Source: Pseudomonadales bacterium (GTDB taxonomy: Bacteria > Pseudomonadota > Gammaproteobacteria > Pseudomonadales > Azotimanducaceae). From it: 64,000 bases of DNA. Made by a program: the position numbers and the translations under genes. The DNA lies in the NCBI GenBank assembly GCA_012103505.1, contig WLWP01000001.1, forward strand, positions 2,666,001-2,730,000. The letters are read 5' to 3'. The notes below the pieces were generated by a model. That model did not search any database. It was not told where the DNA came from and saw nothing but the letters and a program-made list of their open reading frames with translations. Positions 5,936-22,605 of this stretch are shown piece after piece; position 1 is the first letter of the stretch; each line of letters opens with the position of its first letter.

Positions 5936-6087
5936 AGGTGCATCCGTCTGAATTGCAGGGATGGTACCAAGAAATGAGAGACGATCCCCCTCGAGCCGGT
6001 AGCCACTACGGTTCGAGAGCGCTTGAGAGACAGGTGATAACTAGTTTTAATAGCTGCAACGTTCAAAAGCTAGACCGGGAGGAAGAC

Positions 6088-6621
6088 ATGGTTCAATTTT
6101 TAGATCCCAGGGGTGAGATAGCGACAGCGGAGGAGATATACAACCTTACGCAAGACATTCGTGCGGACGAAGGTGCTGGTATGACCGTCGGACTGCTGGC
6201 AAATGGGTTTCCCGATTCAGAAAAGTTCTTGTCCAAGCTGGGCACGGTACTAGAAAGCCGCCTGCCCAAGGTGAAAACCAAACTTTGGAACAAGGGTAAT
6301 GCTGGGATTGCGGCTGGCGAAAAGATGCTCAACGAGATCAAAGCACACTGTCAGGTCGCGATCGCGGCCTACGGTCACTGAGGCAGTTGTACTACCGGCA
6401 CCGTGCGTGACGGCTTCAATATTGCAAAACTCGGTATCCCTGCAGTCGCCTTGGTAACCGAGGATTTCTGGCCGCAAGGCAACTTCGTTGCCAAATCCCT
6501 CGGGATGTCTACGCTACCACGTGTACAGCTACCTCATCCTGTAGCCGGGACCGGTGAGGAGAATATGCAGCGAGTCGCCGAGCAGGTTGCAGATGAGATA
6601 GTCGATCGGTTTGCGCAATGA
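6088..6621 (+). CDS. UGSC family selenoprotein (Sec98)
   Basis: The frame opens at ATG 6088 behind a good ribosome site (GGGAGGA) and meets an in-frame TGA at 6379-6381. It continues without break to 6621, giving 177 residues. The residues around the TGA read AAYGH-U-GSCTTGTVRDG, matching the U/C-G-S-C motif that names the UGSC family, known from marine metagenomes in both Sec and Cys forms. Upstream, LLANGFPDSEKFLSKLG and downstream, LGIPAVALVTEDFW, form a compact alpha/beta protein. A stem-loop with a GU-containing apical loop starts 14 nt after the TGA (see 6395-6413). The biochemical role of the family is unproven; U..C spacing suggests thiol/selenol redox chemistry. The stop overlaps the next start as ATGA. 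Reading the TGA as a true stop would leave a truncated protein and a stray 72-residue fragment. Confidence 0.92.
6395..6413 (+). promoter_or_regulatory. Bacterial SECIS element of the UGSC gene
   Basis: CCG pairs with CGG and CAC pairs with GTG, separated by one G-A mismatch, closing a five-base loop CGTGC. The loop G at 6403 is its second base and lies 22 nt after the TGA. This fits the bacterial SECIS rule of a small stem-loop just downstream of the UGA with a G among the first two loop bases. In RNA it would bind SelB to direct selenocysteine insertion. Confidence 0.75.
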
Positions 6622-7694
6622 CTGCAGAACTACTGGCAGCCACTGATGAAGAAGCAGCACTCGATATGTTGCATGAACTCGAATGCACCGACGGTCTACC
6701 CGTTGTCATTCCAACACAACAACGAGTTGATCGGCTCGTGTTAGCTAGCGGACTGGACGGGGACATGGTGCTCGGTGAAATGGGCCCTGCTCTCGGAATC
6801 GCAACAGTTGAAAAAGTCGCCACCGCGGCAGTCATGGCAGGTTGCAAACCAGACTATATGCCCCTCGTGATCGCGGCCGTGAAGGCAGTCGTGGACCCGG
6901 TCTTTGATCTCACTGAATTGCAAGCCACGACCCATTGTACTGCTCCGATCGTGATCGTAAATGGCCCAGCCCGCCACACCTGTGGTCCAGTTGCATCCGG
7001 CTTTGGTGCACTAGGGCCTGGGCATAGAGCAAACGCAAGCATTGGTCGTGCTTTGCGCCTATGCATGATCAATATCGGCGGCGGCAAGCCCGGCATCTCT
7101 GATATGGCCTTACTCGGCCATCCTGGAAAATTCACGTACTGCCTGGCCGAAGCCGAAGAAGACTCACCCTTTCCGCCTTTGCACACGAGTCGAGGATATG
7201 AAGCGGATGACAGCGTTGTAACAGTTCTAGGATGCGAAGCTCCGCACTCCGTCATCTACAGCGATGACGCGGATGATCCGGAAGATGCTGAAAAGCTACT
7301 ACACGTGTTGGCCATCGGTCTCGCCAATCTCGCAACGAACAATGCAATTTTGGCATCTGGTTCATCTCTTGTTGTGCTTGGGCCTAAGCACGCCAGCGTC
7401 TTTGGCCGTGCCAACATGAATCGTGAATCTGTTGCTCAACGACTCTGGGAACTTACCCATCTCTCGACAGCAGACCACAACCACTATGGCCAAGGATTCG
7501 GTTCTAGATTCGCTGAGGATACGTATCCAGCTTTCGCCAAGCCCGAAAACATCTTAATTATGGTCGCTGGTGGCAGCGGCCTCTATTCGATGGTGATGCC
7601 AAATTGGGGCGGTGCGAGCCACGCAAACTCTGCGGTCAGCGTAAAGGTAGAAGTAGATCAATTCTGCGAGGTTCCGGGACTAGCAGCGAACTAA
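6618..7694 (+). CDS. Conserved UGSC-partner protein of unknown function
   Basis: The 358-residue soluble protein starts at the ATG that overlaps the UGSC stop (ATGA), so the two proteins are probably made together. I do not recognise a named enzyme family. Visible conserved-looking blocks are TDGLPVVIPT near residue 24, THCTAPIVIVNGP, HTCGPVASGFGALGPG, INIGGGKPGISDMALLGHPG near 150-170, and MVAGGSGLYSMVMPNWGG near the C-terminus. Several Cys residues sit in these blocks (CTDG, HCTA, TCGP, VLGCEAP), which would suit a thiol-exchange partner or a metal-binding role. No signal peptide or membrane segment is present. The partnership with UGSC is inferred from coupling. Confidence 0.72.
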   Translation: MTAELLAATDEEAALDMLHELECTDGLPVVIPTQQRVDRLVLASGLDGDMVLGEMGPALGIATVEKVATAAVMAGCKPDYMPLVIAAVKAVVDPVFDLTELQATTHCTAPIVIVNGPARHTCGPVASGFGALGPGHRANASIGRALRLCMINIGGGKPGISDMALLGHPGKFTYCLAEAEEDSPFPPLHTSRGYEADDSVVTVLGCEAPHSVIYSDDADDPEDAEKLLHVLAIGLANLATNNAILASGSSLVVLGPKHASVFGRANMNRESVAQRLWELTHLSTADHNHYGQGFGSRFAEDTYPAFAKPENILIMVAGGSGLYSMVMPNWGGASHANSAVSVKVEVDQFCEVPGLAAN

Positions 7695-17366: not shown

Positions 17367-18365
17367 CTATTGGCCCTTAACAATAATTCTTTTTGTCCAT
17401 CTTTCCGCTAGGTTTGGTGCCCGACCAGGCGTACTCCATGGGCAAACTGATATGCAAATTGCGCAGCCGTAGGTTTCGTTGAAGTAGCCAATGCACTTAT
17501 CGAAGTCCACGTACCACTTCTCGTCGCCGCGTACCTGCTGCTTTTCCTGACTAATCGCCTGCGGCGGACAGGCATTCGTACATACCTGACAGCCTAAACA
17601 AAACTCATCTGCACCAAAGCGATCAGGTTGATTAACCTCGAGCGGCAAGTCCGTCTCAACCGCTGCCAATCGAAAAGACGACCCAAGCTCTCTGTTAATC
17701 AACGATCCATGCTTCCCGAGTTCACCGACTCCGGCTGCAATGGCAGCGGGTATCAGATTCATCGATCCGACCCAGGGTCCAGTATGTGATTTAGCTTGGT
17801 ATCCTTGCGACTTAATCCATTTGGTTAACTTTCGTGCGGCTCGTGAACCTCGATTGTATTGCACAGCCACTTCATGAGCCCAATCTGGGTGCTCGTTGCT
17901 GGGCGGTAACTCCCGTGAACGGCTATGGTCCATAGCTACCACCAGCACAACAACAAAAGGCATCTCAGTTGTGAATCCCTCATACATCCACTGTGGTTCA
18001 ATCGTGGCAACGCCCACCTGATCCGATTCGTTAGCGAGCGCGAACTCTTGGAGCCCATCGGTCCACGCTGTCGTCGACCTCGGCTCAGCCAATTTTCCAG
18101 GTTCACTTCTTTCGCTGGGTCCACGATCAGCATTTGCGTATACCGCTAGCAGTTCTGGCACGGTGTTGTGCCGCTCAACGATGCAATCCTGGACAGGACC
18201 AAATGGACCATCGCTACTTGGCTGTACCCAGAAAACACGATCAGGTTGGCGCGGCTCTGTCTCGCCGAGGCCATTAAAATCGTTACCCGATTTACCGTCC
18301 AATAGCTCCTGGAAAGCCAACGTTGGCTGCCAAGGATCTTTGGACCAGTTTTTGCGCTTTGCCAC
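17367..18365 (-). CDS. Double 4Fe-4S cluster oxidoreductase, epoxyqueuosine-reductase/reductive-dehalogenase-like
   Basis: A 332-residue protein whose C-terminal third carries two ferredoxin-type clusters: CLGCQVCTNACPPQAI near residue 265 and CAICISVCPWSTPG near 310. The middle region includes SHTGPWVGSMNLIPAAIAAGVGELGKHG, broken here at LIPAAIAAGVGELG, the signature of QueG and reductive dehalogenase catalytic domains, which bind a corrinoid in those families. No Tat signal is seen, so it is probably cytoplasmic. Its own substrate is unknown. It lies 11 bp downstream of the YkgJ-type gene on the same strand. Confidence 0.8.
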   Translation of the reverse strand: MAKRKNWSKDPWQPTLAFQELLDGKSGNDFNGLGETEPRQPDRVFWVQPSSDGPFGPVQDCIVERHNTVPELLAVYANADRGPSERSEPGKLAEPRSTTAWTDGLQEFALANESDQVGVATIEPQWMYEGFTTEMPFVVVLVVAMDHSRSRELPPSNEHPDWAHEVAVQYNRGSRAARKLTKWIKSQGYQAKSHTGPWVGSMNLIPAAIAAGVGELGKHGSLINRELGSSFRLAAVETDLPLEVNQPDRFGADEFCLGCQVCTNACPPQAISQEKQQVRGDEKWYVDFDKCIGYFNETYGCAICISVCPWSTPGRAPNLAERWTKRIIVKGQ

Positions 18366-21328: not shown

Positions 21329-22519
21329 TTATGCAGAGTCTCGAAAAGCCTGCGAGCCGGGAACTAACAGTAGCGATGACGTGATTTTGATCATCCGATC
21401 TTCGCTATGCGCCAACGCTTTCTTTACGGCGCGTATCAACTCACCTGCTGCAGTTTCTCCCCAGTACCAATCTTCCATCGCTTGCACGGATGCTGTGCCG
21501 GGCTGACTCGCTGCGGCCTCGTTATAGAACGCCTTGATGTCTTCGACAGCATACTTCAGCAGGTCTACCACGCGTACGTTTTCGACTGGACCCGCTTCCG
21601 GCGGGGTGCCGTCCAAAAAACTACCCGTAAACTGTACCGCTTGTTCGATATCAAGCCCCGACACGCCAACGGTAGTCGCACGGCTGTCTTTGCCTTTTTC
21701 ATACCAAGGACGAAGCAATGCCATCTCATTAAGTACCTTCGAAACCAATGACGTCTGCTCATCCTGCGTTGCAAAGGAGACTGGACAAACCCATGTTTCC
21801 TCCACTTCGCTGTCATCTGGCGCATCTTCCTCATAGGTAACAATAATGGGGTCGGACCACTCTTGTAGAAGGGCCAGCGCTGCACTCAAGACTCGGTGCT
21901 GAAAGTCCGGATCGTTTGGCACACCCAGCGGTCGTCCCAAAGAATACGGAACCGCTAGCGCCCTGGGTGGCGCAATCGCCTCGGCATGCTGAGGCACCAA
22001 AGCGATGGCAACCGTGGGGATACCGGCGCGTTCAAAATAATGGGCGAGCCCGCAAACTGCGAGCGTACAGAGGGGTCAGACCGGGACTAAGATCAGACCG
22101 TCTACTTCGTCATCACGAAGGTTTTTCGCGAGTTGTTCAGCAGCCTGTTGCATCGTATCGGGGGAAGAAGCGCCCATGAAGGAATAGTGATATCGCGCCA
22201 CACTGCCGATTTCACCTGATGCTGCTTTTTCTGTGAGTCTATCTAACGGCATTGCTATATTTTGATCTTGCACAAACCCACTTCGATCAAAGTTTGTAGA
22301 GATATGGCTCATGAGGATGTCTTCGTCAGATTCCATATCGAGAATCCGATAGTCCGTTGCGCCAATCGAAAAGGGTTTATCGCCTCGATGCATAAGACCA
22401 GCCGTGGAGATCAAAGCCACTCGACGTTCATTCAGGGGTACACCCGCAACTGGTTGCGTTACGGCAAATTCAACGGCTTCACGATTCGCAAGTCCATCCG
22501 GTACATCTTCGCGCCTCAT
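21329..22519 (-). CDS. GrdB/PrdB-like reductase selenoprotein (Sec148)
   Basis: The frame from ATG 22519 (behind AAGGAG) meets an in-frame TGA at 22076-22078 and continues to 21329, giving 396 residues. Across the TGA it reads GLILVPV-U-PLCTLAVCGLAHYF and then GIPTVAIALVPQHAEAI. This matches the glycine/sarcosine/betaine/D-proline reductase selenoprotein B family (GRDB), whose active site has Sec followed by Cys (UxxC). Further family blocks are LISTAGLMHRGDKPF and YSLGRPLGVPNDPDFQ. No GrdA or GrdE partner is present, so a classical Stickland reductase is unlikely. Aerobic bacteria carry such stand-alone members with unknown substrates. A perfect 6-bp SECIS-like hairpin follows the TGA. A PhyH gene follows in the same operon. 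Confidence 0.93.
22048..22064 (-). promoter_or_regulatory. Bacterial SECIS element of the GrdB-like gene
   Basis: On the minus strand GCTCGC pairs with GCGGGC (one G-U pair in RNA) around the loop AGTTT. The loop G is the second base and is 19 nt after the TGA. Position, stem length and loop agree with bacterial SECIS elements and with the one at 8580-8596. Confidence 0.85.
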
Positions 22520-22605
22520 CTGCTCTCCTTCATCTCTCAATATCCTCATAATCACGTGGGATAGTGGGTAGACTAACCATATCGATCTGCGAACTAAAGG
22601 AACCT

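Follow-up and report, generated by a model that had tools for sequence, protein, structure and literature searches.

A UGSC-family selenoprotein and its near-obligate partner in a Pseudomonadales genome: a candidate two-subunit, thioredoxin-driven reductase

A 64,000-nucleotide stretch of the Pseudomonadales bacterium assembly GCA_012103505.1 (contig WLWP01000001.1, positions 2,666,001 to 2,730,000, forward strand; hereafter the window) carries a UGSC-family gene with an in-frame TGA for selenocysteine (Sec), followed by the gene of a partner protein. Here, we report that a selenocysteine insertion sequence (SECIS) downstream of this TGA is under selection, that the genome has the potential to decode Sec, and that the coupling between UGSC and its partner is near-obligate. 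On balance, we favor the view that the two proteins make up one two-subunit, thioredoxin (Trx)-driven selenol/thiol reductase of GrdB/PrdB-like character, with a carboxylic acid or coenzyme A (CoA) ester as its most likely substrate.

The Sec codon and its SECIS element

The UGSC frame opens at ATG 6088 and runs for 97 codons to the TGA at codon 98, then for 79 more to a terminal TGA that overlaps the partner's ATG (6618–6620; Table 1). The original prediction, made from the letters of the window, had placed the internal TGA at the Sec position of the UGSC motif, with an open frame beyond it and a stop overlapping the start of a 358-residue partner; all of these points, the partner's length included, are borne out. 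With the TGA read as Sec, residues 4–175 match PF24696 (UGSC) on both sides of the codon (152.5 bits, E = 1.6e-44, cut-off 25). The NCBIfam equivalog NF041046 scores 112.6 bits, under its cut-off of 125, which makes the window protein a relative outside the equivalog as cut. The window motif reads AYGHUGSCTT; in the alignment termed A2, positions 98, 99 and 101 are invariant and position 100 is conserved in at least 90%. The open frame by itself is weak evidence for Sec, as seven of the 2148 TGA codons in the window, that of Sec98 among them, are flanked by equally long open frame on both sides. Comparably long frames around a TGA are not rare, and support for Sec comes instead from the match to the family, from the orthologues and from the constraint on the SECIS. 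Matches of UGSC to PDB sequences were judged to be chance, as were weak Pfam matches in the 42 A2 members and in the partner sets (GNAT, kinesin, glycosyl hydrolase 4 and others, at most four members each). Rfam gave no match in the window at gathering scores, weaker matches not being sought.

Table 1 Coordinates of the features discussed in the text
Feature	Position	Strand	Details	Evidence
UGSC-family selenoprotein gene	6088..6621	+	177 aa with Sec98; stop TGA 6619–6621	PF24696 match and orthologues
Shine-Dalgarno-like GGGAGG	6077..6082	+	5 nt 5' of ATG 6088	sequence reading
In-frame TGA, Sec98 (U of UGSC)	6379..6381	+	kept in 43/43 aligned sequences free of N; Cys there in Cys forms	
Bacterial SECIS hairpin CCG-G-CAC-[CGUGC]-GUG-A-CGG	6395..6413	+	GU in apical loop; TGA-to-loop 20 nt	synonymous constraint
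Partner protein gene	6618..7694	+	358 aa; conserved Asp25, Cys76, Arg144, Cys175, Glu178, His258, Gly318	

A search of 117 relatives returned 46 near full-length orthologues of the window UGSC (loci L119–L164, counted by hand from the match table), with 47–69% identity and exactly one TGA each; it also gave three incomplete pieces, in G464 and G411, and numerous weaker paralogues. All but five of the UGSC matches listed among these relatives carry a TGA, and some of the five are fragments. Two findings that would have spoken against Sec, homologues ending at the TGA and a genome lacking selA, selB, selC and selD, had been named in advance: none of the 46 orthologues ends there, and selA, selB, tRNA-Sec and selD are all present, with SelB (401.6 bits), SelA and tRNA-Sec adjoining in one cluster and SelD at 253 bits. 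Homologues with Cys at the Sec position, which the original prediction had proposed for comparison, exist in 45 loci, collected with a search pattern that demanded a Cys codon and hence was unable to return Sec forms. In a quickly built tree of 104 UGSC sequences kept after thinning (62 with Sec, 42 with Cys), many of whose deep branches are weak or long, the Sec/Cys label switches nine times by parsimony, and at least four switches are forced by well-supported branches. One Cys-form gene (L022, 7787–8304, minus strand) has its halves in different frames and a TGA elsewhere, a frameshift or sequencing error.

The assembly contains three UGSC genes, each with a single in-frame TGA, and the same holds for its seven PrdB-like matches. 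One of these seven lies in the window (minus strand, gene about 21329–22555) and is a second selenoprotein, GrdB/PrdB-like (PF07355), with its TGA at 22076–22078 in the motif UPLC and a hairpin with a GUU loop. A further gene (17367–18365, minus strand), named by eye from its sequence, encodes a QueG-like or reductive-dehalogenase-like iron-sulfur protein.

The predicted SECIS-like hairpin with a GU loop was found at 6395–6413 and is nearly free of synonymous variation. From the window and its 46 orthologues, 43 sequences were aligned, leaving out L145, in which undetermined bases made the motif search fail, and L136, L140 and L151, which also contain undetermined bases. The 19 nt of the hairpin (CCGGCACCGUGCGUGACGG) are letter-identical in 42 of the 43, with L164 departing through an amino-acid change. 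Synonymous entropy over codons 103–109 (T G T V R D G) averages 0.05 bits, compared with 1.50 in the other conserved degenerate columns, and none of 200000 permutations of the 70 columns reached a value as low. As the element is invariant, no covariation is demonstrable within the window clade. The folding energies of three stretches around the TGA were not distinct from those of shuffles (z = +0.21, +1.19 and −0.83).

The published bacterial SECIS consensus model (PMC13188914) sets rules for the loop, the spacing, an optional N1–N2 pair and the energy. The window hairpin agrees in its 5-nt loop with G at position 2 followed by U and in the UGA-to-loop distance; the optional N1–N2 pair is absent (C–C), and the stem contains an internal G–A mismatch. 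The 19-nt hairpin alone reaches −4.9 kcal/mol, short of the model's −7.5 kcal/mol; for the 45 nt that follow the TGA the value is −10.8 kcal/mol. The hairpin of UGSC genes in other clades differs and is mostly CGUGCA-GUN-UGCAYG: its loop begins with GU in all 23 unique sequences (46 collected), and its six pairs form in 98% of cells, a share that drops to 65% or less once the 3' strand is shifted by one or two bases. Three of the unique sequences carry a C–G to G–C swap on both sides. The window clade has a SECIS shape of its own, different from those checked in other UGSC genes.

Coupling of UGSC to the partner protein

Asked whether the partner is always adjacent, as the original prediction had proposed to check, the genomes answer nearly always. 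It stands beside UGSC in all 46 orthologue loci, downstream and on the same strand in 45 and divergent in one, and adjoins it in every one of the 29 loci from other clades (L078–L106) and in 44 of the 45 Cys-form loci. At the level of genomes, UGSC was found in five of 398 genomes of the phylum and the partner in the same five; among the 117 relatives UGSC occurs in 69 and the partner in 71, including all 69, the two extra being G434, a 99-base fragment, and G463. Seen from the partner's side, 13 of the 14 plasmid loci opened (from 24 records) have UGSC or a UGSC-like domain adjacent or fused, although two of them, both from Paracoccus, look alike. Gene order is UGSC–partner in the window clade and partner–UGSC in 28 of the 29 other-clade loci. 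The two proteins share one frame in L169 (Sec form) and in L230 from Variovorax boronicumulans (Cys form), and these natural fusions make it more plausible that UGSC and partner would form a physical complex.

Across 148 unique partner sequences, Asp25, Gly75, Arg144, Glu178 and Gly318 are invariant, and Cys76 (147), Cys175 (145) and His258 (144) nearly so. No known family accounts for the protein: Pfam and NCBIfam gave no convincing match over 41 members (seven weak Pfam families), the window partner had no Pfam match at E up to 1, and the best PDB sequence hit had an E value of 0.81. In the 24 plasmid records it is labeled "hypothetical protein" in 16 and left unannotated in eight. In Cys-form loci, 24 partners begin with a fused domain that bears a CxTC-type motif, followed by VPT or VPA in the few that were read; judged by these motifs, we read it as a Trx-like domain.

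Thioredoxin, catabolic neighbors and the proposed enzyme

Separate genes also link the pair to thioredoxin. TrxB profile matches of at least 150 bits were found in 11 of 59 loci, with three more loci scoring lower; with one or two TrxB genes in each genome, clearly less than one would be expected across the 733 kb searched. Of the 11, four come from Methylobacterium and are not independent, and the rest are Bradyrhizobium, Burkholderiales, Variovorax, Roseovarius, Arthrobacter and two other actinomycetes. TrxB is confirmed by name in L047 and in the annotated L218, L221 and L225, the other seven resting on the profile. The Arthrobacter row reads trxB–trxA–partner–UGSC and that of Roseovarius partner–UGSC–trxB. 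Among relatives of the window, TrxB lies 1.6–3.3 kb downstream in 17 of the 46 orthologue loci.

Fumarase directly follows the pair in 23 of these 46 loci, and CoA-transferase III is near it in 25, upstream on the same strand in 23 of them; several of the 46 stretches end at contig ends. CoA-transferase III is also found in 14 of the 59 other loci. TctC, TRAP/TAXI, DctA-like and MFS transporters recur near the pair, as do LysR, GntR and AraC regulators, and CoA ester lyase and BKACE occur in several loci, the BKACE neighbors coming from Bacteroidota. We read this neighborhood as one for the uptake and breakdown of organic acids, and our guess at the substrate class is a carboxylic acid brought in from outside, or the CoA ester of such an acid. 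Two specific substrates were considered and rejected: fumarate, as fumarase is found in none of the 59 other loci, and carnitine or betaine, as BKACE and a 3-hydroxyacyl-CoA-type dehydrogenase each account for three of 84 neighbor proteins and the dehydrogenase of L037 falls far below carnitine models. ComA-like phosphosulfolactate synthase genes lie near the pair in Arthrobacter (L225, 5659–6447; 127.5 bits, under the cut-off of 280) and Natrinema (L223, 4826–5293), a possible hint of a sulfonate-like substrate.

The nature of UGSC itself was approached by comparing profiles. A UGSC profile of 128 sequences aligned with a PrdB-like profile of 30 in register at Sec (P = 2.3e-4), with a probability of 45% that falls short of proving kinship; an earlier, smaller comparison gave P = 4.7e-4 and 33%. 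Eight control profiles, a Trx-like domain included and one of them with only three sequences, reached at most 0.7%. Because of this likeness relative to the controls, UGSC is favored as a GrdB/PrdB-like selenol nucleophile rather than a Trx-like fold.

In the enzyme we propose, UGSC would be the small subunit, with Sec98 as nucleophile and Cys101, three residues on, as the resolving partner of a UxxC pair, and the partner the large subunit, whose conserved Cys76 and Cys175 belong to a protein that probably completes the substrate site. The selenolate, or the thiolate in Cys forms, would attack a small organic substrate in the shared site. This substrate is most likely an imported carboxylic acid or CoA ester; its reduced product would leave, and an Se–S bridge would form between Sec98 and Cys101. 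Thioredoxin, as the Trx-like domain fused to the partner or as cellular TrxA/TrxB, would then re-open the bridge. The working mode would be that of glycine and proline reductases (GrdB, PrdB). Of this scheme the data show the genetic parts, namely the potential to decode Sec, the constrained SECIS, the near-obligate coupling and the fusions; that the two proteins bind, that they run this redox cycle and that thioredoxin donates the electrons is inferred.

Several observations weigh against this reading. Concerning the kinship to GrdB/PrdB, the window UGSC fails to match PF07355 at E values up to 1; no GrdE model matches the partner, PF09338 being absent from the seven weak families of its 41 members; and PF09338 (GrdE-type) was not found in the genome, by a search that was equally silent in 14 of 14 controls. 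Concerning thioredoxin, Pfam finds none in the two CxTC-fused partners scanned, and TrxB near the window orthologues may be no more than a fixed neighbor within their genus. In the window, TrxB, fumarase and CoA-transferase III are all absent from the first 13 kb. The coupling also has exceptions. An archaeal UGSC homologue in Methanobrevibacter (L063, 5746–6264; PF24696, 118 bits) is without a partner, its neighboring gene being one that we take to encode a class-I lysyl-tRNA synthetase-like protein; L228 has a partner without UGSC and G463 a partner without a UGSC match; and L165 and L166, with Ser at the Sec place as judged by eye, have no partner within the about 4 kb fetched on either side. 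In Sporomusa termitida (L220, 7299–9023) and Vibrio europaeus (L222, 7323–9008), a UGSC-like domain fused to the partner has DMGTS in place of U/CGSC. These fusions are a motif-less branch, perhaps non-redox, and since they and the Ser forms lack Sec and Cys, the UGSC fold can exist without a redox residue.

The alternative that survives best, although we consider it unlikely, is a non-redox enzyme (hydro-lyase, isomerase or carbon–carbon lyase) in which Sec/Cys serves as nucleophile or metal ligand and thioredoxin merely keeps it reduced. The DMGTS fusions adjoin aconitase X and DUF126, and hydratases and lyases (fumarase, CoA ester lyase, HMG-CoA lyase) are common neighbors, as such an enzyme would have it; but the near-universal retention of TGA among the listed matches and the invariance of Cys101 in A2 stand against it, and where the operon also encodes a Trx-like domain or TrxA/TrxB, a stoichiometric electron supply is the likelier role for them. 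Less probable again is that UGSC is a thioredoxin-fold thiol oxidoreductase with the partner as its client or a redox-regulated enzyme. UxxC does resemble the Trx motif, yet it sits at residue 98 of 177, away from the N-terminus; the UGSC profile compared with that of the Trx-like domain gives P = 0.076 and a probability of 0.7%; none of the Pfam families with matches in the 42 A2 members is a Trx model; and in 24 Cys loci UGSC would be a second Trx-like domain beside the one already on the partner. On this sequence evidence we reject a Trx fold for UGSC.

An antioxidant or detoxifying reductase acting on peroxides, xenobiotics or organo-metals, outside catabolism, is a poor candidate. Known selenoproteins are often peroxidases or Trx-like, and luciferase-like, VOC and GMC oxidoreductase genes lie near the pair in the window, but use of a carbon source is the better fit for the transporters, LysR/GntR regulators and CoA-transferases that recur. 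Finally, reading the TGA as a plain stop, or as a sequencing error in a broken gene, would fit a bare stop codon with local folding no better than shuffles, but is rejected in view of the 46 TGA-bearing orthologues and the synonymous constraint on the SECIS, alongside the complete sel machinery.

Relation to known systems

The UGSC family is known, and its fusion to a domain of unknown function (UGSC/Unknown_1) was described in marine metagenomes by Zhang and Gladyshev (2008, PMC2398784), who also proposed a Trx-like fold for UGSC. Unknown_1 is possibly the same partner; that paper reports the fusion, and the present analysis contributes the obligate coupling, a connection to Trx and the operon. 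Our literature search, with most subscription papers outside its reach, found no description of an obligate partner, a Trx link or a clade-specific SECIS, so that these three are apparently new with respect to the literature searched. Compared with the family as defined by PF24696 and NF041046, the window gene shares the full-length Pfam match, the U/C-G-S-C motif and the existence of Sec and Cys forms; it differs in scoring below the equivalog cut-off and in belonging to a clade apart, in which the SECIS is shaped differently and the gene order is UGSC–partner.

The near-obligate partner, the thioredoxin link and the catabolic neighbors turn an orphan UGSC into a testable enzyme. Annotation can hide the pair: the partner is hypothetical or unannotated in plasmid records, and in Paracoccus ferrooxidans (L226, CP038202.1, 7369–7938) the UGSC gene is split at its in-frame TGA and annotated as two hypothetical proteins, with selB about 4 kb downstream. 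As a wider proposal, which we hold tentatively and rate at somewhat less than an even chance, the pair may represent a new class of thioredoxin-driven two-subunit reductase with GrdB/PrdB-like chemistry in marine and soil bacteria and haloarchaea, cleaving or reducing an imported carboxylic acid or CoA ester, with the partner as a new large-subunit family.

Glycine reductase is built of Grd subunits and has a thioredoxin-linked electron supply, and the known GrdB/PrdB systems work in anaerobes. With GrdB/GrdE of glycine reductase and PrdB/PrdA of D-proline reductase the window pair shares a Sec subunit carrying UxxC, a second subunit and, as proposed here, an electron supply linked to thioredoxin. 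It differs from them in that UGSC has no PF07355 match and the partner no PF09338 match.
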